Below are positions 1,669 to 20,721 of a stretch of 64,000 nt of DNA, piece after piece. The DNA lies in NCBI GenBank assembly GCA_038736355.1, contig JAVYML010000002.1, forward strand, positions 310,001-374,000, in the 5' to 3' direction. A model generated the notes under the pieces. That model made no database searches and was not told the origin of the DNA. It saw only the letters and a program-made list of their open reading frames with translations. The position numbers were made by a program, and so were the translations under genes. The first letter of the stretch is position 1. Each line of letters begins with the position of its first letter. The DNA is from Candidatus Hadarchaeales archaeon. Its GTDB lineage: Archaea; Hadarchaeota; Hadarchaeia; Hadarchaeales; WYZ-LMO6.

Positions 1669-2244
1669 CTAGGGGGATAAGGGCTTGGCTATGAAGTCGC
1701 AGTGTGGATCTCGATTGGAATAACATCTCAGTTCTTCCACCCTGTAGTTCTTTCCCGTGAAATGTTGAGTGGCTCCGGCTATGAAACCTGCCAAGTAATA
1801 ACAAACCTTCCTTCCAACCTTCCCCATTTCCCTGGCTATGTAACTCCCTCCTTTGAACCTCAAAATTCTTCCCTGTTCACTTTTGAGGAGAACTATCTCA
1901 CCCATTCCGCTCTCCGAGAAAAAAATGTCCGTATAAATGGTTTTTTCTTTCAAGCTTTTCTTGCCCAGACCGAAGGTGCGGCAAAGCCATTGAGCCACCC
2001 TTTTCCCGGATTTAAATCCGGTATCGTAAAGGAAAGTGTTGCAGGTATCTATCCACACATCCTCCCTTACTTCCAAAGCAGGTGCGAATTCCACTATCTC
2101 TCCAGCATCTACCAAACACCCCATCCAAAGTTCGAAGGCTTTTTTCCAGTTATGACGCAGATACTCTTCTATTTCCCTTTTAGCCTTCTTGTATTCTTCC
2201 ATTCTTCCATTTTTCTCTAATGCGGATAAAAATCTTGGAATCAC
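1669..2244 (-). CDS. V4R-domain protein, last gene of the replication operon
   Basis: A 191-residue protein. The N-terminal 60 residues are charged and helical. The rest matches the 4-vinyl reductase (V4R) small-molecule-binding fold, ending in the typical cysteine-containing block EELRCYSNRDPHCDFIAKP with Cys and His spaced as in ligand-binding V4R domains. These domains are predicted to bind hydrocarbons or other small ligands and often sit in regulators. The GTG start at 2244 overlaps the DP2 stop by four bases (GTGA), so it is co-translated with the polymerase subunit. Why a V4R protein ends a replication operon is not known. It lacks any visible HTH or enzymatic domain. Confidence 0.75.
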   Translation of the reverse strand: MIPRFLSALEKNGRMEEYKKAKREIEEYLRHNWKKAFELWMGCLVDAGEIVEFAPALEVREDVWIDTCNTFLYDTGFKSGKRVAQWLCRTFGLGKKSLKEKTIYTDIFFSESGMGEIVLLKSEQGRILRFKGGSYIAREMGKVGRKVCYYLAGFIAGATQHFTGKNYRVEELRCYSNRDPHCDFIAKPLSP

Positions 2245-5200
2245 AGAAAGTCTGCCAAACTCATCTGTCTTTCTGCATCGCTTTCGAAGACAGATTTTAT
2301 GTCGCTTTCCATCAGTTTAAGGCGCTGCTTGGTGTATTCGCTCACTCCAAACTCCTCCGCTATCCTCAAGGCGGTACGCAGGTATTTCTCCACCCCACCC
2401 CTAGGTACTGTAAGGACCAAATTCCCTCCACACTCGATGCACATCCCCACCAAAGGAATGCGCCTATATTTGGTGTTGCAGCTCGTACACCTGAACTGCT
2501 GGGTGGAAAACTTACGCAGGTTCCCCTTCAAATCGGGAATGAGGTGGTGCTCTATCACCCTCTCAGCCACATCCCTCTCATCCACCGCCCTGATCTTCCT
2601 AGCCAAACTCAACTGTGCCATGACCTTTTCTTCCATGGTTTCGAGTTCCGAGTAGGTGGAGGTAAGGGGTCCCTTGGCCAAATCGGAGGTATGAACGTTG
2701 AACCCCAATCCCTCATATTGTCCTTCCGTTCCCAGCCTTTTCTCCACCGTTTCCATCCAGACCAAAACTTCGGTGGGATGGGCCTGCTTGAGGGTGGCCT
2801 CATAGAATTCCAGCGGGTATTTGAACATGGTATCCATGTTGTGAACCTCTTTGTCAACTTCTTTCGGATCTATTCTGAGGTTGAGGACGAGGGGAGCATC
2901 CATGAAGCCTCCCCTGCTCGCGGGTAGGAATCTCCTGCTGAAGTTGAGGAGGGCATCCAGCAAGAGCATCACGGCATCTTCATCCCCGTCACAGTCCCTT
3001 CTTTTGGCTGCGTGGAAGTAGGGATGGGCATAACCCACGTTGGCCTTCGTGAATCCGACGATCCTACCCACCATACCCACGGAGGTATGGGGAGAAAGAC
3101 CCACCACCAAATGGCCCAGGAGATCTTCCTTACGCTGGGCCCTGTAGTAGGGGGGAAGACCGTAGAATTTCTGGAGGAGCTCGTCTATGAATTTGGAAGC
3201 TCTGAGGAGATACTTGGCCCCCTCCTCGCAGAGGATGAGATCCTGCACCTTGAGCTCCACCAACTGATCCTCCCTTTCCAGGGGCTCCCCCAGATAATCC
3301 CTCGTGTAGCCCAGTTCCCTAAGGCGCTCCACCGGAACACCCACTTCCCTGGGACAGAAATGGGTGAGGGGGAGGTTGGTAGCATCAAAGCGCACGGTTC
3401 CATCCTTGAAGACGCGTAAATCGTACTTTGCCCTCAAGATACCCTTTTCGAGGGGTTCGGGTATCTTGTAGGCACTGCTCATCCCCCTCACTCCCTTCAG
3501 GTCTTCGGGTGCCTTTTCACCCAACCTCTTTTCCGCCTCCTCGAGCATCTTCTTCAGGTCTATCATCCTCTCGCTGAAGAATTCCTCCCTCACCCCGCAT
3601 GTCTGGCATCTTCCCTTGGTGGGCCTTCCACATTTTGGACAGAGCTTCACAAACTCCGTTTTTGCTCCACAGGAAGGACACTTCCTGCTTATCCCCAAAG
3701 TGCCACAGGAAGGACATTTCAAGTTCGCTATCTCAACCCTCAGCTCTTCACTCTTGGCAGCCTTTAAGATGCTCCTGGTGGGTCCCCCAGCCTGTCCGAC
3801 TGGAAAGAGGAGATGGGGAGGAGGATCCATTTCCCTGGGTTTCGCCTTTTCCGGTCTTCCCATTTTGCTTCCTATCCATGTAGGAGCCTTCTTCCTCACG
3901 GGGAAGCCTGCCACTTTCTCCAAGAAGGGCATCACCTCTTCTTCCTCTTCCTTCTCCAGTTTCTCCGTGGTCAGCTCCTTTCCCCTCAGGATACCAAGTG
4001 TTCTGCAGAGGGGGAAGGCATGTTCTTCTATCCTGACCTTCTTTCCCTCAACCCGATGCGGAACACAGAGAAGCTCCAGAATCCTCTTGGGTCCCTCCTC
4101 CAAGGGCAGGGTCAGGGTTTTGAGTTCCCCATCCTCAAATTCAGCTTCTCCTCGACACAACCACCTGGCCAGTTCTAGGAGGTCTTCTTTCTCCACTTCG
4201 TGGTAGAGGTAGGTATAATGGGGATGGAGGGGAACCCCGAGTTTCTCCGAAATTTCCACGGCCAGCTTGGGGGAAGGAATGGAGTAGGGGGGAAGGATAT
4301 AAGGTGAGAGGTCTTGCGGAAATTCTTTTCTGACCTTTTCCACCTCTTGGGCCCACCATTCCTCACAATATCCCGCGGGAAGGAGGGGATGGTTGTTTTC
4401 CAAGAACTCCCCGAAATCTATCAGTAGATCCCCAAGGCAGAGGATCTCCTCTATCTCTCCCTTCAATCTCTCGGCCTCCTCCACGGAAGAGATCCTCAAG
4501 ACGGAACCATCCCTGAGCTTGACCGTAGGACCTTCTATCGTATCTACTGGGGCCACGGCTCCTCCCTTTCCCGGTCTCTCCAGCTTGAGTTGTGTCCCCA
4601 CGGCCAAGAATCCCTCCAAGATCACCATGGTGGCAGGATGCACTCCCACCGCCGCTATACCCGTGTTCCTCGCCCTCCCGTATCTGAGCCTGAAACCTCC
4701 TGCTCTTCCAGGATAGGAGATAACAGGCCTTCCTCCTATCACTTCCTCCAAATACCTGGCTTCTTCTACCTCCTCTTCTTCCGAAACTGGATGTTGTACG
4801 AGTTCCTCCAGCCAATCCCAACCCTCTATCCCCAACTTCTTCACGTACTTCATGATCTTGGGCGCCTTCTGTAACACTCCCTCAACTAAAGCCAGAACGG
4901 CTCCTCCTCTAACAAAATTGTGTCCAATCCTGGGAAGATCGCGATAAGCCGTTACCATCACTTCCCTGTTCGTGGGTTCTCCCGTGATTTCCACCGGAAG
5001 ATTGCGAACCGCCAACCTGATCTCATCGGGACTGGGAGTATACTGCAGGTGTGAAATCTCAGAAGAGTAGAGGTTCACCTCTTCTACGAATCTCTCCACC
5101 TCTCTTTCCGTGGGCTTGTATCTGTCCAAAAAGAGTTTTCTTCGGACGAAATCACCCGTCAGCACCGCCAGTGCTGCAGCCGTTCCACCTGCCGACCTTA

Positions 5201-5642
5201 TGGGGCCGGAAAAGTGAAGGGCCAGGTACCGACTTCCATCCGGATTCTTTTCTATCTTCACTCCCGTCAGTCCTTCCAAGGGTGCAGCTACCGCTATTCC
5301 CTCCGTGATGATGGCCAAAGCAGTACGCAGGGCTTGCTCAGCCCTCTTTTCTTCATCCAGTTCTCCCCCCAAGCTCCCATCGACAATCATCTCCGCCACT
5401 TTCAAAGCCAGTTCTTCCCTGGGCATTTTCTCTTCCAGTTCCCTTATCACCCGTGCCACTCCCGGGGGACCCACTATTTCCTCCACCCTAGAAGCCATGT
5501 CATCCGTCAGGGGTATCTCGGGTTCCAATTCCGGGTCCTTTCCAAGACTCCTGGCCTTGCGGGCTATCTCGTAGGCTTCCTCCACTTTTCGCTCTATCTC
5601 GGTGAAGTAGGCTTCCATGGAGGGACTCATCACCACTCTCAT
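2241..5642 (-). CDS. polC: DNA polymerase D large subunit DP2
   Basis: The catalytic subunit of the archaeal family D replicative polymerase, 1133 residues and without an intein. The acidic active-site cluster RDCDGDEDA lies at residues 882-890, near ANVGYAHPYFHAAKRR. A central zinc-binding region (CPSC, CPSC, CPKC, CQTC) falls around residues 640-690, and a C-terminal CTSC...CIEC module near 1050. The protein ends in RQMSLADFL, a good PCNA-interacting PIP box (QxxLxxFL). The ATG at 5642 overlaps the preceding HAD gene by four bases. DP1 lies two genes upstream in the same operon, so both subunits are made from one message. Length and motif order are normal for the family. Confidence 0.98.
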   Translation of the reverse strand: MRVVMSPSMEAYFTEIERKVEEAYEIARKARSLGKDPELEPEIPLTDDMASRVEEIVGPPGVARVIRELEEKMPREELALKVAEMIVDGSLGGELDEEKRAEQALRTALAIITEGIAVAAPLEGLTGVKIEKNPDGSRYLALHFSGPIRSAGGTAAALAVLTGDFVRRKLFLDRYKPTEREVERFVEEVNLYSSEISHLQYTPSPDEIRLAVRNLPVEITGEPTNREVMVTAYRDLPRIGHNFVRGGAVLALVEGVLQKAPKIMKYVKKLGIEGWDWLEELVQHPVSEEEEVEEARYLEEVIGGRPVISYPGRAGGFRLRYGRARNTGIAAVGVHPATMVILEGFLAVGTQLKLERPGKGGAVAPVDTIEGPTVKLRDGSVLRISSVEEAERLKGEIEEILCLGDLLIDFGEFLENNHPLLPAGYCEEWWAQEVEKVRKEFPQDLSPYILPPYSIPSPKLAVEISEKLGVPLHPHYTYLYHEVEKEDLLELARWLCRGEAEFEDGELKTLTLPLEEGPKRILELLCVPHRVEGKKVRIEEHAFPLCRTLGILRGKELTTEKLEKEEEEEVMPFLEKVAGFPVRKKAPTWIGSKMGRPEKAKPREMDPPPHLLFPVGQAGGPTRSILKAAKSEELRVEIANLKCPSCGTLGISRKCPSCGAKTEFVKLCPKCGRPTKGRCQTCGVREEFFSERMIDLKKMLEEAEKRLGEKAPEDLKGVRGMSSAYKIPEPLEKGILRAKYDLRVFKDGTVRFDATNLPLTHFCPREVGVPVERLRELGYTRDYLGEPLEREDQLVELKVQDLILCEEGAKYLLRASKFIDELLQKFYGLPPYYRAQRKEDLLGHLVVGLSPHTSVGMVGRIVGFTKANVGYAHPYFHAAKRRDCDGDEDAVMLLLDALLNFSRRFLPASRGGFMDAPLVLNLRIDPKEVDKEVHNMDTMFKYPLEFYEATLKQAHPTEVLVWMETVEKRLGTEGQYEGLGFNVHTSDLAKGPLTSTYSELETMEEKVMAQLSLARKIRAVDERDVAERVIEHHLIPDLKGNLRKFSTQQFRCTSCNTKYRRIPLVGMCIECGGNLVLTVPRGGVEKYLRTALRIAEEFGVSEYTKQRLKLMESDIKSVFESDAERQMSLADFL

Positions 5643-6415
5643 TCCACCACCATGTCCGAGATCCTGTTCAAAACTAAGTCGGGTTTCTCTTCCTTTCCCA
5701 GTCCTTCCAGATCCTTCCTCTTGGTCACTCCGCTCAAAACCAGAATGGAAAACATCCCCAGTTTCTTGGCTGGCACCACGTCCAAATCCAACCTATCGCC
5801 CACCGCCCCCGTTTCCTCCGGTTTCGTTCCCAAAAGGCGGAGGGCCATTTTGTACATTCGGGTAGAGGGTTTTCCTAAAATCAGAGGTTTCTTACCCGAG
5901 GAAAAGGAGAGGGCTGAAACAATGGCCCCCGCTCCAGGAAGCAGTCCTCTCTCAGTGGGATAGGTAGGGTCAGCATTGGTAGCCAGAAACTTTGCCCCCC
6001 TCTGCAAGGCTCTCAGGGCCCGCTCCAATTTCCGATAATCGAAGTTCCTGTCTATCCCCACCACCACGCAGTCCACATCCTCCCTTTTCAATACCTTCAT
6101 TCCTGCCTTCCTCAATTCTTCCTCGAGACCCCTTTCCCCCACTACGTAAACCTTGGCATCCGGCATCCTTCGGCGGAGGTATTCGGCGGCGAGGTAACCA
6201 GAAGTGAGGATTTCCTGAGGAGAGGCTTCGATCCCCATCCTCCCCAACTTCTTCACATAGTCCTCTCTGGAAAGAGAGGAATTGTTGGTAACGAACATCA
6301 CCTTCTTCCCCCTTTCCCTCCACCTCCCCAAGAACTCGGCCGTGCCCTCCACGGGGGTATCCCCCACATAGACCACCCCATCCAAGTCCAGAATCAAGGC
6401 ACGGAGCTCAGGCAA
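5639..6415 (-). CDS. HAD-superfamily sugar-phosphate phosphatase (NagD-like, subclass IIA)
   Basis: A 258-residue HAD hydrolase. Motif I is DLDGVVYVGD near residue 10, giving the nucleophile and general-acid aspartates. Motif II is FVTNNSS, and motif IV is AVGDRLDLDV, with Lys in ILGKPS. The C2-type cap between motifs II and III places it in the NagD/phosphoglycolate phosphatase-like IIA group, so p-nitrophenyl phosphate-type or sugar-phosphate substrates are plausible. The exact substrate cannot be told. It overlaps DP1 by 8 nt upstream and DP2 by 4 nt downstream, which makes it an integral member of the replication operon. A housekeeping role for phosphoglycolate or nucleotide-related products is speculation. 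Confidence 0.9.
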   Translation of the reverse strand: MPELRALILDLDGVVYVGDTPVEGTAEFLGRWRERGKKVMFVTNNSSLSREDYVKKLGRMGIEASPQEILTSGYLAAEYLRRRMPDAKVYVVGERGLEEELRKAGMKVLKREDVDCVVVGIDRNFDYRKLERALRALQRGAKFLATNADPTYPTERGLLPGAGAIVSALSFSSGKKPLILGKPSTRMYKMALRLLGTKPEETGAVGDRLDLDVVPAKKLGMFSILVLSGVTKRKDLEGLGKEEKPDLVLNRISDMVVE

Positions 6416-7898
6416 AACGCATCACCGAGGGTTGGTTTTTCTGGAGGTCTATCACCGTCACTATTCCCGGTGTGGGAACGATTCCTCTCTCCCTCATGTA
6501 GCTTGTCATTCCTTGGAAAGTACCAGAATTGACTGCCCAGACCCCTCTGTACTTCTTCAATCCAGAGATGTGGATATGGCCACAATGGAGCACGTCGGGA
6601 ACCTCGTCTATGACCAGAAAATCCCTCTCCTCGGGTACCATGGCCACTTTTCCACCGTACATGGGAGCCAAATGCCTCTTTTTTAGGAGTCTCACCATCA
6701 TGGAAGAAATATCGTTCCTGCTACTTCCTGGAAGGATGGAGACCAAATCGTCGAAACTCCTTCCATGATAAATCAGGAACTTCACACCGTGCAGGGAAAT
6801 CCAGGCGGGATTTCCCACCATCACCGAATTCAGTTCGTAGAGTCTGCCTGCCACTTCTTTTGGAATCGCCGGCTGAGGTTCGGAGGGTCTGACGGCATCA
6901 TGGTTTCCTGGTGAAAGGATAAGCTTAATGTGATCGGGGATCCTCTCCAACAACCTAGCTACTTCCTCGTATTGCCTGAAGATGTCGTGGAGGTATAGCT
7001 CCTCCTCCTGTTGGGGATAAATCCCTATTCCATCCACCAAATCACCAGCCACCACCACATACTTTGTCCTACTCGCTAGGTTTCTCTGGGAAGCATTTCC
7101 CGCCTTGCCCTCCAACCAGTTGAGGAACCTTTCAAAAACTTCCCTCAAAAACATCTTGCTACCGATATGCAAATCCGAAAGGAGTACTGCACAGACTGGT
7201 TCTTCGGCCATCGTGGGATGCTCCCTCATGGGCAGGTCCGGCCAGACTATATCCCTGGCCACGATCCTAGGAAGTTTGTCCCCAGAACGTACCGTTCCCT
7301 CTACCCCTATCACTTCATCCGGTATTACTTCTGCAGCCTTTTCCCAGAGCTCCTCGCTTTTACCCCTGAAAATCCAAACAGCCGCCTGTCCCGTTGGATC
7401 TTCTAACTTGATTACCAAATGTCCCCCTGGGGTTTCTTTCTTTTCAGCCACCATCCCTACCACCCTAACCAATTCCCCCTCCTCAAGGGTCGCCAGTTCC
7501 TTGAGGGGAAGAGGATCCGCGTAATCGCTCCTTTCCCTAAGGAGCTCCTTCAGCCTTCTGTACCTGTCCAAGAAAAGGTTGAGAAAATCCCTCACCTCAC
7601 CGCGGCTATAGCTCTTTCCTGTAACATCTCTCAGAACCTCTACCCTGTCCTCCACCTCAGCTGCTAGGGGCTTGAAACTGGTGTGGGAGACTTCTCCGAT
7701 CCCTTCTCGGGAGAATTTGGAAGCTGGTTCTAGGATCTTTTTTACCATCTCCAAAGTGACTATGAATTCCTTCCCCCTGAGGGCTTCTAGTACTCTCTCC
7801 ACCTCTTCTTCCCTCCTTTCCTCCAGCAACTGAAGGGCCTCGGGAGTGAGGCACATTTGGGCTTCCTGGAACCTTTTTACCAGACTTTCCCCGTCCAT
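6408..7898 (-). CDS. polB: DNA polymerase D small subunit DP1 (3'-5' exonuclease)
   Basis: A 496-residue proofreading subunit. The N-terminal half contains an OB fold (LVRVVGMVAEKKETPGGH onward). The C-terminal half is an Mre11-like calcineurin phosphoesterase with the metal motifs LLSDLHIGSKMF, VVAGDLVDGIG, SPGNHDAVR, YHGRSFDD and CGHIH. All of the expected Asp, His and Asn ligands are visible, so exonuclease activity is likely intact. The gene starts with ATG at 7898, 9 nt after the cdc6 stop, and runs into the HAD gene with a short overlap. It pairs with DP2, encoded two genes downstream. Length is usual for euryarchaeal DP1 proteins with a shorter N-terminal region. Confidence 0.97.
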   Translation of the reverse strand: MDGESLVKRFQEAQMCLTPEALQLLEERREEEVERVLEALRGKEFIVTLEMVKKILEPASKFSREGIGEVSHTSFKPLAAEVEDRVEVLRDVTGKSYSRGEVRDFLNLFLDRYRRLKELLRERSDYADPLPLKELATLEEGELVRVVGMVAEKKETPGGHLVIKLEDPTGQAAVWIFRGKSEELWEKAAEVIPDEVIGVEGTVRSGDKLPRIVARDIVWPDLPMREHPTMAEEPVCAVLLSDLHIGSKMFLREVFERFLNWLEGKAGNASQRNLASRTKYVVVAGDLVDGIGIYPQQEEELYLHDIFRQYEEVARLLERIPDHIKLILSPGNHDAVRPSEPQPAIPKEVAGRLYELNSVMVGNPAWISLHGVKFLIYHGRSFDDLVSILPGSSRNDISSMMVRLLKKRHLAPMYGGKVAMVPEERDFLVIDEVPDVLHCGHIHISGLKKYRGVWAVNSGTFQGMTSYMRERGIVPTPGIVTVIDLQKNQPSVMRFA

Positions 7899-7907
7899 TC
7901 CATCCCC

Positions 7908-9134
7908 CTAGAAGAGCTTGGTCTGGTGGGGAAGAGAAAGGGAAGTGGAAAGGAACCTCTCCTCCTCCCCTAGGATCTTTTTGAGCTGAAGAACAGAAAA
8001 GTTGAGGGAAATCTCCTTGGTCCTCCCATACCTCCCACTGTTGATGATCCTAGTGCTGATGATCCCCAGCATGTCCAGCTCAGAAAGGAGGTCCCCCACC
8101 CTCCGCGGCGTGAGGACGTCCATGCCACCCTGAAGGGCTACCCTCCGATAAGCTTCATACACCTCACCCGTAGTCACTTTTTCCATTCCCCTCTGGGCTA
8201 GGAGCAGGAGACTGAGGAGCAACACCTTGGACTGCGTGGGAAGGGTGCGGACTAGCTCCACCACCTTGTCCTCCTCCAGCTTTTCATAGGCCTTCTTAAC
8301 ATGGTCCAACGTAACCGAGTCCATTCCTTCCCTTTCCGCCAGCTCCCCAGCTACCCTTAGGAGATCCAGTGCCCTCCTGGCATCACCGTGCTCTCTAGCC
8401 GCATGGGCTGCGCAGAGGGAGATAACCCCTTCTCCCAAAACTCCTGGGTGGAAAGCCTCAGAAGCCCTCTCCTCTAGAATATCCCTCAACTGTAGGGCAT
8501 CGTACGGTGGAAATACCAGCTCCTCCTCCCCCAAGCTGCTCTTCACGCGAGGATCCAGATAGTGGGTGAACCTCGCATCGTTGGAAATCCCAATCACGCT
8601 CACCTTTGCCCTTTCCAGCTCAGAATTTATTCTGGTGAGATCGTAGAGGATTTCGTCTCCTTTTCTCATCACCATACGATCCACCTCATCCATTACTATG
8701 ATCACGGCACGCTCCTTGGAGTCAAGTGTTTTCAAAAAATTTTCGTAAAGGATATCCAAAGGCCACCCAGTGGTGGGAACGGGATTTCCTTCGGAGAGGG
8801 AGTTGGTCAAAGTGGCGAGGATGCGGTACCTGGTATTCACCCTCTCGCAATTAAGATAAATCCCCCTTATCTCACGGTTCAGCTCCCTTCCCACCCTCTC
8901 CAGCTCCCCAATCACATACCTCACGGTGGCGGTCTTTCCCGTTCCCGTCTTTCCATAGATGAAGACGTTGGAAGGAGTTTCGCCCCTAAGGGGTGAGGAG
9001 AGGATCCTCGCCAGCTCCTCTATTTGTTTTTCCCTGTGGGGAAGTCTTTCCGGGAGATAACTTGGCCGGAGGAGTTCGCGATTCTTGAAGATTGGGCTCC
9101 TTTCCACCAAATTTTTGAAGAGTTCACCCCTCAC
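7908..9134 (-). CDS. cdc6: Orc1/Cdc6 origin-binding initiator ATPase
   Basis: A 408-residue AAA+ initiator. Walker A (YGKTGTGKTATV) is near residue 60 and Walker B (VIIVMDEVDRM) near 145. A sensor-1 region follows (VIGISNDARF) and then the lid (HGDARRALDLLRVAGE). The C-terminal 110 residues form the winged helix that contacts ORB DNA. It is the only Orc1/Cdc6 gene in the window. It overlaps the GINS gene by 11 nt and is followed after 9 nt by DP1. Its probable binding sites are the two ORB elements about 7 kb upstream at 16349-16372 and 16714-16734. Placement inside the mcm-gins-polD operon rather than beside the origin is less common than in Thermococcales. Confidence 0.97.
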   Translation of the reverse strand: MRGELFKNLVERSPIFKNRELLRPSYLPERLPHREKQIEELARILSSPLRGETPSNVFIYGKTGTGKTATVRYVIGELERVGRELNREIRGIYLNCERVNTRYRILATLTNSLSEGNPVPTTGWPLDILYENFLKTLDSKERAVIIVMDEVDRMVMRKGDEILYDLTRINSELERAKVSVIGISNDARFTHYLDPRVKSSLGEEELVFPPYDALQLRDILEERASEAFHPGVLGEGVISLCAAHAAREHGDARRALDLLRVAGELAEREGMDSVTLDHVKKAYEKLEEDKVVELVRTLPTQSKVLLLSLLLLAQRGMEKVTTGEVYEAYRRVALQGGMDVLTPRRVGDLLSELDMLGIISTRIINSGRYGRTKEISLNFSVLQLKKILGEEERFLSTSLSLPHQTKLF

Positions 9135-9594
9135 TTCCTCCCACCCCCAGTCTTTTTCCCATCCATCTCCTCCATTCCTCTATCTTTCCAGCCAGCTCCT
9201 CGAGCAAAACCTTCTCTTCGGGTAAAGCCCCCTTTGCCTGCGAGGGAAAGAGAGAGAAACGCACCAGCTTCTGCAGGCGTACTTCCAAAAAATCTTCCAC
9301 CGCCTTCCTGAATTCTTCTCCCTCTTCGCTCCCTCTGAGATACTCCATCTCTTCGGCCAATTGATGGTAGAAACCCTGTTGGAGGGGTTGCAAGCCGGGT
9401 TGTTTCTTCTCGGAAAGCAACAGCTTACGCACGGCAGCAAGACCCAGTGGATGAAGGGGTTCGACCAAACCATGTTTCCTCAACACTCTGAACTGCCAGT
9501 GCTCCAGCTCTACCCTCTCACCTTCCCTCCAAGAGGAGGGTCCTCCTCCCAAATCCAGTTCAAAATCTCCCTTAATCACACAAGGGACCTTCAT
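9124..9594 (-). CDS. GINS complex subunit with B-then-A layout (Gins23-like)
   Basis: A 156-residue protein. The first 55 residues look like the small beta-rich GINS B domain (KGDFELDLGG..., then EGERVELEHWQFRVLRKHGLVEPL). The remainder is the all-helical A domain with the conserved FYHQLAEEMEYL and FLEVRLQKLVRFSL helices. This B-A order is that of the Psf2/Psf3-type archaeal Gins23, whereas the common euryarchaeal Gins51 is A-B. GINS tightens the MCM helicase and links it to the replisome. It overlaps mcm by four bases and cdc6 by 11 bases. Direct linkage to mcm is the arrangement known for crenarchaeal gins23. No Gins51 gene lies in the window. Confidence 0.85.
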   Translation of the reverse strand: MKVPCVIKGDFELDLGGGPSSWREGERVELEHWQFRVLRKHGLVEPLHPLGLAAVRKLLLSEKKQPGLQPLQQGFYHQLAEEMEYLRGSEEGEEFRKAVEDFLEVRLQKLVRFSLFPSQAKGALPEEKVLLEELAGKIEEWRRWMGKRLGVGGSEG

Positions 9595-11630
9595 CCCTTC
9601 ACCACCCTCGTCACGTATCCCGTCTTTGGCTCGTAGAGCAAACCCTCCCTCTTCTCCTCTTCTATCACCCTGTGCACGAAGTTCTCCTCTATTCCCTCTT
9701 CCTTGGCCCTGCGCAGGATTTCTTCGATGGGGGCCATGCCTCCATGCTTGTTTTCAACTTCCCCTATGATGTCCATCACCCTCTGGATTTTGTCCCTCTG
9801 GCTCTTGGGTCTCCCCGTGAGAATGATGTCCACATCTATTTTTCCGGTGGTGGTGTCTATCCCAGCCTCGTGTAAGTATTTGGAGAGGAGGGCTATCGCT
9901 CTACTCACATCCTCTTCCGTAACTTCTTCCCTGAAATGCATCCTAGCGCTTGCTTTCGACAACCTGATGAGAGATTCCAACTGTCTTGGTGTGATGGGAA
10001 CCGGTTCTCCCCTCTCCGCTGCGCTTCTATACTTCACATAGAAATCCTCTATCTTTTTGATCACTCCTTCCCCCTTCAGCTTGGGATGGATGTATTTTCT
10101 GGCGTAAATGAGGAGCTTCCGCAGGGTTTCGGAATCGATGGGTGGCTTGGCTATCTCAGGCTTCCTGTGCAGCTCCAACATGTGTCTAGCTATTTTCTTG
10201 TCCGTCTCCCCATGTGGTTCGTCCCTCATGATGAAGATGAGATCAAACCTGGAAAGGATCACGGGCTCCAAACCAATTTGCTGTACCAAGTTGCGGTTGC
10301 GATCCAACCTTCCCATCTTAGGATTGGAAGCAGCGAGCACGGAAGTCCTCGAGTTAAGGGTTGCCACTATCCCCGCCTTGGCCACGGAAATCGTCTGCTG
10401 TTCCAGAGCCTCCAAGATGGCACTCCTATCTTCATCAGACATTTTGTCGAATTCGTCTATGCATGCGACACCGCCGTCCGCTATCACCAGAGCCCCGGCT
10501 TCCAGAGTCCACCCCCCACCAAGCTCATCCCTTACCGCTGTAGCCGTCAGTCCTGCCCCCGTTGCCTTCTTCCCGGAAGTATAGAGTCCCCTTGGAGCCA
10601 CGTTCGCCGTCCAGGATAGTAACATACTCTTGGCCACACCCGGATCGCCCGTTAAGAGGATGTGGATGTCTCCCCTTATCCTGGTCCTGTCCGGAAGTTC
10701 GAGAGGATCGCAGCCAAAAAGCATCAGGGCTATTCCTTCTTTTATGGCCTCATGCCCGTGAACGCTGGGAGCTATGGATTTGATGATTTTTTGGTAAAGT
10801 TCTGGATCCTTGATCATTTCCTTTATTTTCTTCTCATCCTCCTCGGAGAGTTCCGTTTCTTCCACTCCCTTTTGCAACACTTCCAAATAGGAAACGTAAA
10901 GTACTTTCCTGAAAGTCTTCATCTTTTTCTGCTTGAAGCTCTCTTGGAAGACTTCCAAAACTCCACTCATCACCACATGGTTTCCCGGAACGGCCACATC
11001 GACCAAGTCATCCCTCACGATACAATCCAGCATCATCGGCATACGTCCACCCCTTAGTTCCTCATGTCTTTCTTGAACCCGGAGACTCTGCCAATCCCTG
11101 AATTCCGACTTTTCAACTTCCAGTTTGAAGGGTCCTCTCTTTCTACAGTTTGGATTCTGGCAACTCAAAGGTTCCCTGAAAATCTCTTCGCTTTGGGGAA
11201 CGGAGTTAAGCTCGCCGCAATGTAAGCACCTGAAAAGGGCTTCCCTTATCTCTGGCTTTATTTCGCTGGCCCTCGTGAGGATGCCCTCGATCTGTATGAA
11301 CTTACCAACATGCTCTGCCCTCAGGTTGCGGATCCTGATAGTCTGTCCTGCACCTTTTACCCTCAACTGCATCTTCGGATTACCGCTTTCTTCCGCCAAC
11401 ACCTCGTTCGCTATCCTGAAGAAGAAGTGTGGGGATTCCTGAAGGATCTCAGCCAAGGTGCCCTCTCCGTGGGCTATGAGTTCATCGAACTCCACCACTA
11501 GGGAATTTTTTCCTACGGCTTGAGCCGCCTCTAGTTCCCTCCTTATCTTCTTGCGGGAAAAGAATTCCCTCAGTTTTTCCTTTAGCTCCCCCACTTCAGC
11601 GGTAATTTCTTCCAACACTTTCCCCCCCAC
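9591..11630 (-). CDS. mcm: Replicative helicase MCM
   Basis: A 679-residue minichromosome maintenance helicase. The N-terminal domain carries a zinc-binding site (CLHC...CQNPNC) near residues 135-170. The AAA+ core has Walker A GDPGVAKS (about residue 327), Walker B CIDEFDKM, sensor 1 AASNPK and the arginine finger SRFDLIF. A C-terminal winged helix follows (VMDIIGEVENKHGGMAP onward). No intein interrupts it. The GTG start at 11630 has a GGAGG ribosome site five bases upstream. It is the first gene of the replication operon and overlaps the GINS gene by four bases. Length and motifs are normal. Confidence 0.98.
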   Translation of the reverse strand: MGGKVLEEITAEVGELKEKLREFFSRKKIRRELEAAQAVGKNSLVVEFDELIAHGEGTLAEILQESPHFFFRIANEVLAEESGNPKMQLRVKGAGQTIRIRNLRAEHVGKFIQIEGILTRASEIKPEIREALFRCLHCGELNSVPQSEEIFREPLSCQNPNCRKRGPFKLEVEKSEFRDWQSLRVQERHEELRGGRMPMMLDCIVRDDLVDVAVPGNHVVMSGVLEVFQESFKQKKMKTFRKVLYVSYLEVLQKGVEETELSEEDEKKIKEMIKDPELYQKIIKSIAPSVHGHEAIKEGIALMLFGCDPLELPDRTRIRGDIHILLTGDPGVAKSMLLSWTANVAPRGLYTSGKKATGAGLTATAVRDELGGGWTLEAGALVIADGGVACIDEFDKMSDEDRSAILEALEQQTISVAKAGIVATLNSRTSVLAASNPKMGRLDRNRNLVQQIGLEPVILSRFDLIFIMRDEPHGETDKKIARHMLELHRKPEIAKPPIDSETLRKLLIYARKYIHPKLKGEGVIKKIEDFYVKYRSAAERGEPVPITPRQLESLIRLSKASARMHFREEVTEEDVSRAIALLSKYLHEAGIDTTTGKIDVDIILTGRPKSQRDKIQRVMDIIGEVENKHGGMAPIEEILRRAKEEGIEENFVHRVIEEEKREGLLYEPKTGYVTRVVKG

Positions 11631-15898: not shown

Positions 15899-16306
15899 CT
15901 AAATCCTCTTCCTCTTCGGTATGATCAAAACCAGAAGACCTCCCTTTATCCTCAAAACACGCTCCTCTGGAACGGCGTTCTTGGGAAGTTCAAAGGTGGA
16001 GAAGTAAGCGTTACCATCCCTCCTCCTCGCCACAATTTCGATGGCCTTTCCCCTCCTCCTTATCTCCACCCCTTCTTTCCCCACTCCAGGAATGCGCATA
16101 CAGAAAATCACTTCCCTTGGCTTCTCCACGCACATGTACTCGGTTTCTAGCGTTCCCTTTATTTCTCCCTCAGGAAAAGTCGTAACTCTCCTCCGAACTT
16201 TCACCTGCGAAGCGTTGGACTCCCTAATATCGACTTGAACTTCTGTTTTCCTTTCCATTTCCTCCACCATTTTTTTAATCCTCTCGAAGAAGTCCCCTTC
16301 GAACAT
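15899..16306 (-). CDS. Hsp20/alpha-crystallin-like small heat-shock protein
   Basis: A 135-residue protein with a charged N-terminal arm (about 45 residues) followed by an alpha-crystallin-like domain. Recognisable blocks are CMRIPGVGKEGVEIRRRG, KAIEIVARRR, FELPKNAVPEE and the closing GGLLVLIIPKR strand with an IxI-like hydrophobic tail. Small heat-shock proteins hold unfolding proteins without ATP. This one is divergent, and a structural p23/CS-like role is possible. It is the first gene of the minus-strand amino-acid operon. A TATA element at 16334-16341 lies about 31 nt before its ATG. It borders the putative replication origin directly. Confidence 0.75.
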   Translation of the reverse strand: MFEGDFFERIKKMVEEMERKTEVQVDIRESNASQVKVRRRVTTFPEGEIKGTLETEYMCVEKPREVIFCMRIPGVGKEGVEIRRRGKAIEIVARRRDGNAYFSTFELPKNAVPEERVLRIKGGLLVLIIPKRKRI

Positions 16307-16348: not shown

Positions 16349-16372
16349 GGGACCCCATCGTTTCCACTGGAA
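16349..16372 (-). promoter_or_regulatory. ORB1, origin recognition box
   Basis: The minus strand reads TTCCAGTGGAAACGATGGGG followed by TCCC. It matches the euryarchaeal/crenarchaeal ORB consensus, with dyad core and G-string. It ends two bases before the AT-rich promoter of the LAGLIDADG-like gene, so Orc1/Cdc6 binding could also affect that promoter. Confidence 0.85.
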
Positions 16373-16373
16373 C

Positions 16374-16383
16374 TATTAAATAC
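16374..16383 (+). promoter_or_regulatory. TATA box of the LAGLIDADG-like gene
   Basis: ATTAAATACT lies about 29 nt upstream of the ATG at 16408, fitting a leaderless transcript. It abuts ORB1 and is part of the AT-rich segment. Confidence 0.6.
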
Positions 16384-16407
16384 TCTTTGCCCAAATTTTT
16401 GATACAA

Positions 16408-16743
16408 ATGTACCAAAAAGAGAGGGATTGGATCTTGGGATACTTGGAGGCTAAGGGTAGCTTCACCCTTAACATGGTGAGGATGAAGGACAAGCTCTAT
16501 CAAAATCCAGTTTTTTTTCTCAGCCAAAAAGAAAGGGAGCCCCTTTTGTTGTTGAGAGATCTAACGGGATTAGGGGAAGTAAGAAAAGTTGGGAGGCTCT
16601 ATCGCTGGGAGATTAGGAAGAAAAAGGAAGTCATAATGCTCGTGGAATTCTTAGAGGGAGGATTCAGAACCCCCGCTAAACAAAGGCAGTACGAAAAGTG
16701 GAAGGAGGCAGTCCTCCAGTGGAAACAGAGGGGTAGGTCCTAA
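16408..16743 (+). CDS. Stand-alone LAGLIDADG-like protein with altered catalytic residue
   Basis: A 111-residue protein. The motif WILGYLEAKGSF (residues 8-19) is a LAGLIDADG helix. It is followed by the usual beta-sheet elements (FFLSQKEREPLLLLRDL...YRWEIRKKKEV) and a second helix region (AKQRQYEKWKEAV). The position just before the invariant Gly, normally Asp or Glu and catalytic in homing endonucleases, is Lys16. Nuclease activity is therefore unlikely, while DNA binding is plausible. I chose the ATG at 16408 because a TATA box lies 29 nt upstream. The gene lies entirely between two ORBs, and its last codons (AVLQWKQRG) encode ORB2. No host intein or intron is seen. It may be a domesticated origin-binding factor. 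Confidence 0.75.
   Translation: MYQKERDWILGYLEAKGSFTLNMVRMKDKLYQNPVFFLSQKEREPLLLLRDLTGLGEVRKVGRLYRWEIRKKKEVIMLVEFLEGGFRTPAKQRQYEKWKEAVLQWKQRGRS
16714..16734 (+). promoter_or_regulatory. ORB2, origin recognition box inside a coding sequence
   Basis: The plus strand reads CTCCAGTGGAAACAGAGGGG, followed by TAGG. It shares the TCCAGTGGAAAC core with ORB1 in inverted orientation. It overlaps codons 103-109 of the LAGLIDADG-like gene and ends 11 bases before the topoisomerase IB promoter. Confidence 0.85.
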
Positions 16744-16776: not shown

Positions 16777-18360
16777 ATGGAAAAGAAGAACTTCGAAGTG
16801 AAATCCCTCGTCCATCGGGGGGTGATGATTCCCACCTACGAGCCAAAGCAGTTGTACATTTTCTACAAGGGGGAAAGAAGGGATCTGACCCCCACCCAAG
16901 AAGAAATGGCGGTAGCCTTTGGAAGACATCTCCTTGCCGGGAGGGGTGAGGACAAGGTTTTTGTGAGGAATTTCCTCTCCGATTTTTGCAAGGCCTTAGG
17001 TATTCCCAAGGATACAGATTTCGAACATTTCGATTTCTCCCCCGTTTTGAAGTGGCTCGAAGAGGAAAAAAGAAAAAAGGAGTCGATGACGAAGGAAGAG
17101 CGCAAGAAGTTGGCTGAAGAGAGAAAGAAACTGAGGGAGGCTAATAAGGAAAGGTGGGGAGTAGCTTGGGTAAACGGAGAGAAGGTGGAGGTAAAGAACT
17201 ACACGGTTGAACCTCCTTGTGTGTTTTTGGGTAGGGGGAAACATCCCCTGAGGGGAAGATGGAAACCCAGAGTGGAATACGAGGATATCATCCTGAACCT
17301 TTCCCCAGATGCACCCATGCCCGAGGCACCAGAAGGGAGGAAGTGGGGGGGAAGGGAATGGGATCCAGAAGCTCTCTGGATCGCGAAATGGAGGGACAAG
17401 CTTACGGGCAAGATGAAATATGTTTGGCTTTCCGATACCTTTCCCCTAAAGCAGGAGAGGGAAAGGGAAAAGTTTGATCGTGCTAGGGAATTGGGAAAGA
17501 GGATAGAAAAGGTTAGGGAACACATAAGAAAGAATCTTTCCCATCCCGACCTAAAGCGGAGGATGGTGGCTACCGTTTGCTATCTCATAGATGAATTGAA
17601 GTTGAGAGTAGGTGATGAAAGGGACAGGGAGGAAAGGAACACGGTAGGGGCCACCACCTTGGGTCCCCAGCACTTAAAATTCGATGGACCAAAGGTGAAA
17701 TTCAGCTTTTTGGGGAAGGATCATGTTAGGTGGTCCAAGAGTCTGGTACCCATTCCCGAGGTCCTCAGAAACCTCAGAGAATTTGCTAGGATGGGTGGGG
17801 AAAGAATTTTCCCTGGAATAAGTTCTGAGGACGTGAATTCTTTCTTGGAAGAGGTGATGCCGGGTTTAACGGCTAAGGTCTTCCGTACCTACCATGCCTC
17901 TAGGGTAGTGGAGGAAGAACTGAAGAAGAGTGGGGTGGGAAAGGAGAGCACGGAGATGGAAAAGAAGTATGCTGCCAAGATAGCCAATTTGAAGGCGGCA
18001 GAAGAGCTCAACCACAAGCGCAAGATTCCTGCGGGATGGAGGAAGAAGATAGAAAGGATGAAGGAGAGGATAAAGCAGCTGGAACAGAAAATGAGGGAGT
18101 TGAAGTCCCAACGGGGAAAGAGGAAAGAGGAAAGGATGAGGAAGTTGAAGGAAAGGATAAGGGAACTCAAACTCAGACTCGAATTGGAGCGTGAGATAAG
18201 GGATTTCAACTTGGGAACTTCCCTCAACTCCTACATCGATCCCAGGATCTACGTCTTCTGGGCTAAGAAGGTAGGATATGGAGTGGAAAAAATTTATTCG
18301 AAGTCCCTTCGGAAAAAGTTCTCTTGGGCAATAGGTGACGGTGGGGAATTATCCCCTTGA
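16777..18360 (+). CDS. Eukaryotic-type DNA topoisomerase IB
   Basis: A 527-residue type IB topoisomerase that relaxes both positive and negative supercoils. The N-terminal core (VEPPCVFLGRGKHPLRG, then EDIILNLSPDAPMPE) and catalytic core align closely with human TOP1. The catalytic set is complete: Arg277 (KLRVGDE), Lys314 (FLGKDH), Arg370 (KVFRTYHAS), His413 (LNHKRK) and nucleophile Tyr486 (LGTSLNSYIDPR). Residues about 415-470 form a highly charged coiled-coil linker as in eukaryotic enzymes. The tail ends in KFSWAI, as in TOP1. Its promoter abuts ORB2 of the putative origin, so replication-linked control is possible. Archaeal members were described mainly from Thaumarchaeota and relatives, so its presence here is notable. 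Confidence 0.97.
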   Translation: MEKKNFEVKSLVHRGVMIPTYEPKQLYIFYKGERRDLTPTQEEMAVAFGRHLLAGRGEDKVFVRNFLSDFCKALGIPKDTDFEHFDFSPVLKWLEEEKRKKESMTKEERKKLAEERKKLREANKERWGVAWVNGEKVEVKNYTVEPPCVFLGRGKHPLRGRWKPRVEYEDIILNLSPDAPMPEAPEGRKWGGREWDPEALWIAKWRDKLTGKMKYVWLSDTFPLKQEREREKFDRARELGKRIEKVREHIRKNLSHPDLKRRMVATVCYLIDELKLRVGDERDREERNTVGATTLGPQHLKFDGPKVKFSFLGKDHVRWSKSLVPIPEVLRNLREFARMGGERIFPGISSEDVNSFLEEVMPGLTAKVFRTYHASRVVEEELKKSGVGKESTEMEKKYAAKIANLKAAEELNHKRKIPAGWRKKIERMKERIKQLEQKMRELKSQRGKRKEERMRKLKERIRELKLRLELEREIRDFNLGTSLNSYIDPRIYVFWAKKVGYGVEKIYSKSLRKKFSWAIGDGGELSP

Positions 18361-18394: not shown

Positions 18395-19348
18395 ATGGAC
18401 GCCTACGAAAGGGTAAGAAGGGGAGCTTCGGAAGTGGTGACAGAGGAGGAATTAAAGGAGGTTATGAGGGGAAAGCCCACGGTTTACTGTGGATACGAAC
18501 CCTCTGGAAAGATCCATTGTGGCCATGCCCTCACCGCCTTCAAATTGTTGGACTTCTTAAAGGAAGGAGCAAGGGTTATAGTGCTCTTAGCGGATCTCCA
18601 CGCTTACCTCAACCACAAGGGCACCTTGGAAGAGATAAGGGAAATCACTGAATACAATAAGAAGTGTTTTGTAGGATTAGGCCTGGATCCGGGAAAGACG
18701 GAGTATAGGTTGGGATCGGAGTTTCAGCTCAGTCGCGAGTACATGATGGACGTTTTGAGGATGTCTACAGATATTACCCTACTGAGGGCTAGAAGGGCAA
18801 TGGCCGAAATAGCCAGAAAGGCCGAGAATCCAGACGTGGCGCAAGTGCTGTATCCTCTCATGCAGGCCGTGGACATAGCCCATTTGGGTGTGGACGTAGC
18901 GGTGGGAGGGGAGGATCAGAGGAAGGTCCACATGATGGCAAGGGAGAAACTGGAGAAGTTGGGTTACAAAAAGCCCGTTTGTGTGCACATGCCTTTGCTC
19001 CACGGTCTGGATGGGGATGTCAAAATGTCCTCTTCCAAAGGGAATTTCATAGCGGTTGATGATACCCCTGAGGAAATAAGGAAGAAAGTCCAGAAGGCCT
19101 TCTGTCCTCCAAAGGTGGTGGAGGGAAATCCCGTGGTTGAGTATGCGGAGCACTTGGTACTTTCCAGGTTGGGAGGGATGGAAGTTCGGAGATCGGAAAA
19201 ACACGGAGGAACCATTTTTCTAAGGGAAGTCAGGGAATTGAGGGAAAGATATTCCAGCGGTGAACTACACCCCGCAGATCTGAAGCCCGCGGTTGCAGAG
19301 GGCCTTATCGAGCTCTTCAGTCCCGTGAGGGAATACCTGAAGGGGTGA
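18395..19348 (+). CDS. tyrS: Tyrosyl-tRNA synthetase
   Basis: A class Ic aminoacyl-tRNA synthetase, about 317 residues. The HIGH-type motif is YEPSGKIHCGHAL, the tyrosine pocket includes YPLMQAVDIAHLGVDVAVGGEDQ, and the KMSKS-type loop is VKMSSSKGNF. The short C-terminal domain is typical of archaeal TyrRS. I place the start at the ATG at 18395, which follows a strong GGAAGGAAGGGG ribosome site. An upstream in-frame GTG at 18335 would overlap topoisomerase IB by 26 nt and add residues not expected in the family. It probably shares a message with topoisomerase IB. TrpRS is excluded by the tyrosine-type binding residues. Confidence 0.93.
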   Translation: MDAYERVRRGASEVVTEEELKEVMRGKPTVYCGYEPSGKIHCGHALTAFKLLDFLKEGARVIVLLADLHAYLNHKGTLEEIREITEYNKKCFVGLGLDPGKTEYRLGSEFQLSREYMMDVLRMSTDITLLRARRAMAEIARKAENPDVAQVLYPLMQAVDIAHLGVDVAVGGEDQRKVHMMAREKLEKLGYKKPVCVHMPLLHGLDGDVKMSSSKGNFIAVDDTPEEIRKKVQKAFCPPKVVEGNPVVEYAEHLVLSRLGGMEVRRSEKHGGTIFLREVRELRERYSSGELHPADLKPAVAEGLIELFSPVREYLKG

Positions 19349-19357
19349 AGTTTTGTT

Positions 19358-19367
19358 TTTATAAATC
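19358..19367 (+). promoter_or_regulatory. TATA box of the MinD-like gene
   Basis: TTTATAAATC starts nine bases after the TyrRS stop and lies inside the apparent N-terminal codons of the longest MinD frame. This argues for a start downstream, at about 19399. Confidence 0.6.
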
Positions 19368-19398
19368 CCCTTCGTTCAAACTTTCAGGGGATGGGTTG

Positions 19399-20217
19399 GT
19401 GAAGAAGAGTCATCGCTCCATCGCCATAGCCTCTGGGAAAGGAGGCACGGGCAAAACCACCATGACTGCCAATTTGGGGGTGGCGCTGGGAATGTTGGGG
19501 AAGAAGGTGACCATCTTGGATGGAGACCTGGCCATGGCGAACCTTTCCATCGTAATGGGACTCACCAAGTTCAGAACGAACTTGTTGGATGTCTTGATGG
19601 GAAGGGCTGAGGTGGAAGAAGCCGTTTACCACAATTACGGTATAAAGGTGATACCAACGGGCTTTCGTTTCGAGGAGGCCCACGAGGCCCTCTTCAAGAT
19701 CAGACCGGAGAGGGTGGAGGAAGTGGTGAGGAAGATTTTGGGGGAAACGGAGTTCCTTCTCATAGATGCCCCTGCGGGTATTCAGGATGCTACCATCCTC
19801 TCCATCGCGGCCGCGAGGGAGATGATAGCCGTTTGTAATCCCACCTACACGAGTTTGGTGGATTGCTACAAGACGATCAGGTTGGCGAATGTCCTAGGTT
19901 CTTGGACGAGGGGAGTGGTGGTGAATAGAACGGGTAAGAGTGCGGATCTTTCCACGAGGGAAGTGGAGGAGTTCATGGGACATACGCTGGGAGCCGTACC
20001 GGTATTGGCCGAGATACCGGAGGATCCCACCGTCCAGGAAGCCGAGAGGGAAGGGGTACCGGTGGTAGTTTACGATCCCGAGTGCAAAGCTTCCTTGGCC
20101 ATCCAAGGTCTTGCGGAGGTTTTGGTGGGAAAGGCCGGACCACCTTATGGGTTTTCTGGAGAAAGGGGAAAGGATGAAATGGTGAGTAGACTGGTTAGAG
20201 CCCTCACTGGGAAATAG
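19399..20217 (+). CDS. MinD/ParA-type ATPase
   Basis: A deviant Walker A P-loop ATPase of about 272 residues. The motif GKGGTGKTT occurs near residue 13, Walker A' (LDGDLAMAN) near 44 and Walker B (FLLIDAPAG) near 120. The latter fits MinD rather than Soj. Archaeal MinD-like proteins position cellular machines or act in polar organisation; the partner here is not known. No MinC/MinE is expected or seen. The longest frame begins at 19345, but its first codons overlap a TATA box. The GTG at 19399 (or TTG at 19396) is therefore the more likely start. The gene stands alone after TyrRS and converges on the KaiC-associated regulator. Confidence 0.88.
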   Translation: MKKSHRSIAIASGKGGTGKTTMTANLGVALGMLGKKVTILDGDLAMANLSIVMGLTKFRTNLLDVLMGRAEVEEAVYHNYGIKVIPTGFRFEEAHEALFKIRPERVEEVVRKILGETEFLLIDAPAGIQDATILSIAAAREMIAVCNPTYTSLVDCYKTIRLANVLGSWTRGVVVNRTGKSADLSTREVEEFMGHTLGAVPVLAEIPEDPTVQEAEREGVPVVVYDPECKASLAIQGLAEVLVGKAGPPYGFSGERGKDEMVSRLVRALTGK

Positions 20218-20223
20218 AAGAAT

Positions 20224-20721
20224 TCAAGAGAGGTTCTTTAGTTGACGCAAAACTTCCTCCAGTGTTCTCATGATTTGTTCGAGCCTTTCTTGCAGTCTGT
20301 TGAGTTTTTCTTGGAGTTCGATTTTTTCCCTTCTTTCCTTCTCGAGTTCGAGTTTCAGTCCCTCCTCCTTGGATTCAGTCCAGAAAAAGAAAGAGAGTTT
20401 TTCGCCACGTAAAAGCATCTCGTAAGTTTCCCTCACCAGTTTTCCGGCCTCGGTTTTCCCCGTCAAGTGTAATCTTATGGTCTGTTCTCCTCTTGCCAGT
20501 TCGTCGGCTATCTTGGAAAGGGTCATGCCAGCCTTTTCCCTCGCAAGTGCCCCTGCTGCTACGGAGAGGGAATCAATCCAGGTAAGACGGGATTTTGGAT
20601 CGACACCACGCACTTTTTCCATCACATCTTGTCTGGAGACAGTCCCCAAGAAGAGGATGGCTTCAAGTTTTTGAATATCCTCTCTGCCCAAAGGCTTTAA
20701 GGGGATTTCCAGTTCGCTCAT
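20224..20721 (-). CDS. HTH / coiled-coil partner of a KaiC-like ATPase
   Basis: A 165-residue protein. Residues about 10-75 are helical with a likely helix-turn-helix ([25 protein letters not shown]), resembling the putative regulators that accompany archaeal KaiC-like ATPases. Residues 115-165 are a strongly charged leucine-rich coiled coil ([20 protein letters not shown]). Such proteins are predicted transcription or signalling factors controlled by the KaiC-like partner; no experimental role can be assigned. Its ATG overlaps the KaiC-like stop by four bases, supporting co-expression and probably physical interaction. It converges on the MinD gene with only a few bases between the stops. 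Confidence 0.75.

Follow-up and report, generated by a model that had tools for sequence, protein, structure and literature searches.

Among ORB-type archaeal origins, Sulfolobus oriC1 has the layout ORB3-DUE-ORB2 (PMC12141716, PMC4010727), and the Sulfolobus motif ucm is bound by UBP, a protein that has over 300 sites and matters for origin activity (PMC12141716). The locus described here resembles Sulfolobus oriC1 in its inverted ORBs, each a dyad with a G-string, which flank an AT-rich tract, but differs in that the ORBs lie away from cdc6 and that a protein gene fills most of the inter-ORB DNA, with one ORB inside the gene. The 111-residue gene product is similar in fold and over its full-length sequence to I-Vdi141I and I-TnaI (PDB 3e54 and 5gkk), archaeal single-motif LAGLIDADG_1 enzymes. 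These are encoded in an rRNA intron, whereas the 111-residue protein is encoded in an intergenic origin; their catalytic acid is not conserved in the origin proteins, in which a C-terminal helix, W-x6-W-K-x-R, runs over an ORB. A further parallel is WhiA, a transcription factor of bacteria whose LAGLIDADG domain has degenerated and lost catalysis (PMC3781837). Like WhiA, the origin protein has a LAGLIDADG fold from which catalytic residues have been lost, and selection maintains it; unlike WhiA, it is without an HTH domain, lies inside a chromosome origin and belongs to a different lineage.

In the literature we found no paper describing an archaeal origin that contains a LAGLIDADG gene and no study of a Hadarchaeota origin. 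The sequence evidence given below would provide the Hadarchaeota with a chromosome origin located within a kilobase, its interior a conserved protein gene and one initiator box in coding sequence. Should the protein act there, a selfish nuclease would have been co-opted to control how the chromosome replicates, and the presence and absence of the gene within one order offers a natural comparison.

The host (G000) is a hot-spring member of the Hadarchaeota (Hadesarchaea) from the WYZ-LMO6 group, with an assembly of 1,272,294 bases in four contigs that is 95.8% complete. The window, the whole 64-kb stretch of DNA that was analysed, is C2:310001-374000 of this genome; positions without a contig or locus name are those of the window. 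A sequence-only reading had proposed an origin here, with two inverted 20-mers that share a core and a G-rich block, and both 20-mers were recovered exactly. The origin and its borders comprise the following features.

15899-16306, minus strand: Hsp20-like gene, left border of the origin (weak match, below the Pfam cut-off)
16353-16372, minus strand: left ORB, TTCCAGTGGAAACGATGGGG, an exact match with its G-string facing outwards
16373-16412, no strand: AT-rich tract, candidate DNA-unwinding element (75% AT, top 0.13% of 40-mers)
16400-16415, no strand: palindrome TGATACAAATGTACCA, candidate accessory-protein site, 28 bp from the left ORB
16408-16743, plus strand: gene for a LAGLIDADG protein of 111 residues, with a single motif, GYLEAKGSF, in which Lys replaces the catalytic acid
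16714-16733, plus strand: right ORB, CTCCAGTGGAAACAGAGGGG, an exact match in the 3'-terminal codons of the LAGLIDADG gene
16777-18360, plus strand: DNA topoisomerase IB gene, bordering the origin on the right in this genus (Topoisom_I, E=2.2e-62)

In contig coordinates, the ORB pair spans C2:326353-326733. The 12-base core TCCAGTGGAAAC has three exact copies in the 1.27 Mb genome; two are the ORB pair, and the third, on C3, is without the G-string. With zero or one mismatch, the ORB consensus TCCAGTGGAAACNNNGGGG matches exactly two sites genome-wide, the left ORB and the right ORB, the latter being identical at 16 of 16 positions, G-string included. The scatter of similar boxes that the sequence-only reading had allowed for was not found, as matches at this threshold are confined to the pair; at two mismatches there is no excess, with four matches in the host genome and four for the reversed control. 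Chance would yield about 3e-7 pairs per genome (ORBs of at most one mismatch within 400 bp, uniform base frequencies), and the pair is far beyond this. The AT-rich DNA that the reading had described between the boxes is real for 16373-16412, at 75% AT; the remainder is mostly the protein gene, which it had missed, and the inter-ORB interval as a whole is 57% AT versus 45% for the window.

Strand composition was analysed with mechanical gene calls over 314 kb of one of the four contigs, C2, beyond its initial 126 kb. Uncorrected, the cumulative keto skew of the 314 kb reaches its minimum at C2:326419, between the ORBs, and the cumulative GC skew at C2:365941, 39 kb to the right of the pair. Because genes to the right of the site are mostly on the minus strand for ~40 kb, we fitted a change-point to the keto content of third codon positions with gene strand taken into account. 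The best position over the same 314 kb was C2:326776, with a 95% quasi-likelihood interval of C2:325901-326776 (overdispersion 2.09), which brackets the ORB pair and holds only three gene boundaries, at C2:325901, C2:326386 and C2:326776. Third-position GC skew is 0.18 in minus-strand genes on the left, 0.16 in plus-strand genes on the right and near 0 in the other two classes; the leading-strand signature is carried by the left minus-strand and right plus-strand genes. The 39-kb offset of the GC skew, considered as the true origin position, was rejected as a gene-strand effect that is gone in the corrected model. The skew inflection named as a check by the sequence-only reading is found at the ORB pair, both as the corrected switch and as the uncorrected keto minimum. 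Its claim that gene direction diverges at this point holds locally and fails beyond, where three plus-strand genes on the right are followed again by minus-strand genes; the cumulative gene-direction minimum lies at C2:378181, away from the ORB pair.

The pair recurs in relatives. Scanning 61 genomes at one mismatch, we found ORBs in 19 and no matches for the reversed control. An inverted pair, minus then plus, each with at most one mismatch, occupies the corresponding place in G001, G002, G004, G005 and G010, and in several other relatives the pairs are degenerate, spaced by 80-200 bp and located upstream of the TyrRS gene. An element equivalent to the left ORB occurs at the corresponding place in relatives. 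The right ORB is degenerate, with at least three mismatches, in six carriers of the LAGLIDADG gene (G003, G006, G008, G013, G014 and G023), and an inverted element resembling the right ORB persists, at a distance of 80-200 bp, in relatives that lack the gene. The Hsp20-like left neighbour is common to G001-G003 and bounds the origin on that side in this family. With two inverted ORBs, an AT-rich tract and a strand-composition switch all present, the site has the features of an ORB-type oriC. The interpretation as oriC gains support from ORBs that are unique in the genome, a pair conserved across the order and a skew switch at the pair, and we consider it very probable that the site is an archaeal replication origin. 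A second origin with another motif is possible because the genome has a second cdc6 copy, at C1:142627.

The adjacency of orc1/cdc6 to oriC, which is typical but not obligatory, is not seen here. The sequence-only reading had located cdc6, mcm, gins and polD nearby and regarded the origin as displaced from cdc6; the genes were found in those places as one minus-strand cluster.

2241-5642, minus strand: PolD DP2
5639-6415, minus strand: HAD phosphatase
6408-7898, minus strand: PolD DP1
7908-9134, minus strand: orc1/cdc6, presumed ORB-binding initiator (Cdc6_C, Cdc6_lid), 7.2 kb from the ORBs
9124-9594, minus strand: GINS
9591-11630, minus strand: MCM

Displacement from cdc6, 7.2 kb in this genome, is retained in relatives, where the cdc6-to-ORB distance is about 8-15 kb in most and 37 kb in one; in the phylum outgroup G027, an ORB cluster lies directly upstream of cdc6. 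The cluster itself (2241-11630) is tightly packed in the order MCM-GINS-Cdc6-DP1-HAD-DP2 on the minus strand, about 5 kb from the origin.

The 111-residue protein matches LAGLIDADG_1 in Pfam (E=5.7e-8). Its AlphaFold2 model, with a pLDDT of 92, has I-Vdi141I (3e54) as its best PDB match (TM 0.83) and also matches I-TnaI; by sequence and predicted fold, the protein belongs to the LAGLIDADG_1 fold family. It comprises one domain only, with no HTH domain at the C-terminus. Orthologues occur in 11 of the 27 genomes of the order, one origin copy each (G000, G001, G002, G003, G005, G006, G008, G010, G013, G014 and G023), and the left ORB adjoins the gene in ten of these carriers; in the eleventh, G013, the contig begins just upstream. 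The gene was not found in the other 16 of the 27 genomes searched, some of them incomplete, and is therefore dispensable. A mobile family of the host genome was ruled out, as there is a single LAGLIDADG copy. Among 394 genomes, the origin clade has no copy away from Hadarchaeota origins; outside the phylum there were just weak homing-endonuclease matches, with the acid intact and no ORB nearby. The origin copies are full length, and their dN/dS values of 0.075-0.26 indicate purifying selection. In the protein tree, which is poorly resolved inside family f3, the deepest split follows taxonomy, with family f1 apart from f3; a TyrRS tree built for congruence was poorly resolved. That a conserved functional gene lies inside the origin is, in our judgement, almost certain.

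The catalytic position was set by alignment with the metal-binding acid of solved PDB enzymes. The acid that ends the LAGLIDADG motif is absent in 9 of the 11 orthologues and is Lys in the host protein; the aligned residue is Lys in six, Ala, Cys and Arg in one each, and Glu in G006 and G013. Six further LAGLIDADG copies, two of them in the order and four in other archaea, are located outside origins; all six have Asp or Glu, and no ORB was found near the four of these that were scanned. Nuclease function has probably been lost in most lineages, the simplest reading being that cleavage disappeared while the protein was kept. Given the Glu in G006 and G013, activity may persist in some lineages or there may have been several losses.

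The gene's last codons, V-L-Q-W-K-Q-R-G, supply the right ORB, which lies over L-Q-W-K-Q-R-G. The Arg codon beneath the G-string is AGG in all 11 orthologues, for which the chance from their own codon usage is about 1e-6, a figure not corrected for phylogeny. Because AGG is invariant, Arg codons elsewhere in the orthologues vary and synonymous sites are near saturation, the pattern points to selection on the right-ORB codons at the DNA level as well as the protein level, with the relatedness of the sequences as a caveat.

Almost every aligned origin of the order is AT- or T-rich in the tract beside the left ORB. After the T-rich tract, 27-30 bp from the left ORB, lies an order-wide palindrome family, TGNTACNNNNGTANCA (TGNTACN4GTANCA). 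It resembles ucm in Sulfolobus in being an additional short motif within AT-rich DNA, although we do not claim identity. Of 11 origins that lack the LAGLIDADG gene, 10 have a perfect palindrome, versus 1 of 11 with the gene, where the palindrome is mostly degenerate (Fisher 3e-4, not corrected for phylogeny); the ten include G009, where the perfect copy is on the left ORB's outer flank and the copy at the usual place has one mismatch. In G018 the palindrome is not beside an ORB, and the origin was not located in that genome. Its presence in lineages lacking the gene means that the palindrome is more than just the LAGLIDADG protein's own site, and the idea of that protein as a binder of the palindrome only is weakened by the palindrome being best preserved where the gene is absent. 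Genome-wide, copies number 15 in G004, 14 in G007 and 8 in G009, none for the reversed control and two in the host genome. The many dispersed copies in G004, G007 and G009 therefore mark the site of a protein that has numerous targets, reminiscent of UBP in Sulfolobus, and a regulator or nucleoid protein is suggested. The dispersed forms in these three genomes are TGTTACACGTGTAACA, TGTTACATATGTAACA and TGATACAYRTGTATCA, and the inspected copies (L121, L125-L140) have unrelated flanks. The commonest palindrome of G004, TGTTACACGTGTAACA, fits TGTTNCACGTGNAACA, which we take to be the parS consensus. A ParB/parS identity was ruled out: unlike in the bacterial system, no ParB_N protein is encoded in the host genome, G004 or G009.

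Our favoured interpretation, held with somewhat more belief than doubt, is that the site is the main ORB-type oriC and that its embedded LAGLIDADG protein is domesticated, probably does not cut and acts on the origin. By analogy with other archaea, Orc1/Cdc6 from the cluster 7 kb away would bind the two inverted ORBs, the AT-rich tract by the left ORB would melt, and MCM would be loaded, with forks departing in both directions. A homing endonuclease would once have inserted in the origin and then been domesticated, as we infer from a homing-endonuclease fold that is kept with a metal-binding acid that is not conserved. The protein, probably as a dimer, may bind the origin palindrome or the ORB dyad without cutting; it may assist or restrain initiation, or repress its own gene, and may have taken over from the palindrome binder of gene-less relatives. 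Transcription of the gene necessarily crosses the origin and the right ORB, so we predict that Cdc6 occupancy and expression could interfere. An origin-related function for the protein seems to us an evenly balanced proposition. More tentatively, we speculate that the former homing endonuclease could be a self-encoded origin-binding protein, with gene and origin overlapping, that replaced the palindrome factor of relatives, an arrangement of a kind undescribed in archaea.

Some alternatives accept the oriC and assign the gene another role. It could still be a selfish, occasionally active homing element, with the origin as a safe landing site and cycles of invasion, decay and loss; its patchy distribution with several absences, the Glu that G006 and G013 have at the catalytic position, the single transition that separates Glu from Lys, and closest solved relatives that are active intron-encoded enzymes would all fit. 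Decaying homing genes should drift, however, whereas even the acid-less copies are full length with dN/dS in the range given above, and neither the lack of a non-origin copy of the clade in 394 genomes nor a protein tree whose deepest split separates f1 from f3 (poorly resolved inside f3) is in keeping with such cycles. We consider this explanation rather unlikely. A plain transcription regulator of the neighbours or of itself, taking no part in initiation, has a bacterial precedent in WhiA (PMC3781837), and the gene does sit between divergent genes. Yet the neighbours vary by family, the left one being Hsp20-like or PrimPol-like and the right one TopoIB, TyrRS or ParA, while the position at the ORBs is constant, which makes such a role improbable.

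Other alternatives concern the origin itself. If only the left ORB were functional, the right one would be a coincidence of the conserved C-terminus V-L-Q-W-K-x-R-G, whose W, K and R are invariant across the 11 proteins, including those with a degenerate ORB. A coincidence is hard to reconcile with a 16-of-16 match that includes the G-string, with AGG in every orthologue or with the inverted right ORB-like element kept by gene-less relatives 80-200 bp away, and we judge it quite improbable. An active origin elsewhere, for instance one served by the second cdc6 on C1, would leave this site as a relic or secondary origin. The C1:142627 copy itself, the restriction of the skew analysis to 314 kb of C2 and the uncorrected GC skew minimum at C2:365941 speak for it; gene-strand correction nevertheless removes that offset and leaves a sub-kilobase switch interval at the ORBs, and the genome has no other ORB of at most one mismatch. 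This possibility appears very remote.

The neighbourhood of the origin holds further genes. The topoisomerase IB at its right border is of the eukaryote type; PF01028 occurs in 19 of the 28 Hadarchaeota genomes searched and, outside this genus, lies away from the origin wherever its place was visible. We found no paper connecting Hadesarchaea with topoisomerase IB. In family f3, a gene to the left of the origin resembles a distant LigD PrimPol/primase small subunit, by weak Pfam matches.

L013:618-1484: PrimPol-like gene, family f3
L029:200-1033: PrimPol-like gene, family f3
L030:189-1127: PrimPol-like gene, family f3

Near the origin of the host, 19345-20721 encodes a ParA-family ATPase and a convergent wHTH protein, and in G010 the right ORB has ParA and wHTH genes as its immediate neighbours; these are possibly segregation genes and a candidate source of the palindrome binder. 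In G016, which is without the LAGLIDADG gene, CTCGAGTGGAAATCAAGGGCATAT at L076:1365-1403 codes for LEWKSRAY and resembles the C-terminus of the orthologues; the stretch, of 13 residues (tblastn E 0.14), is possibly a remnant of a lost copy.
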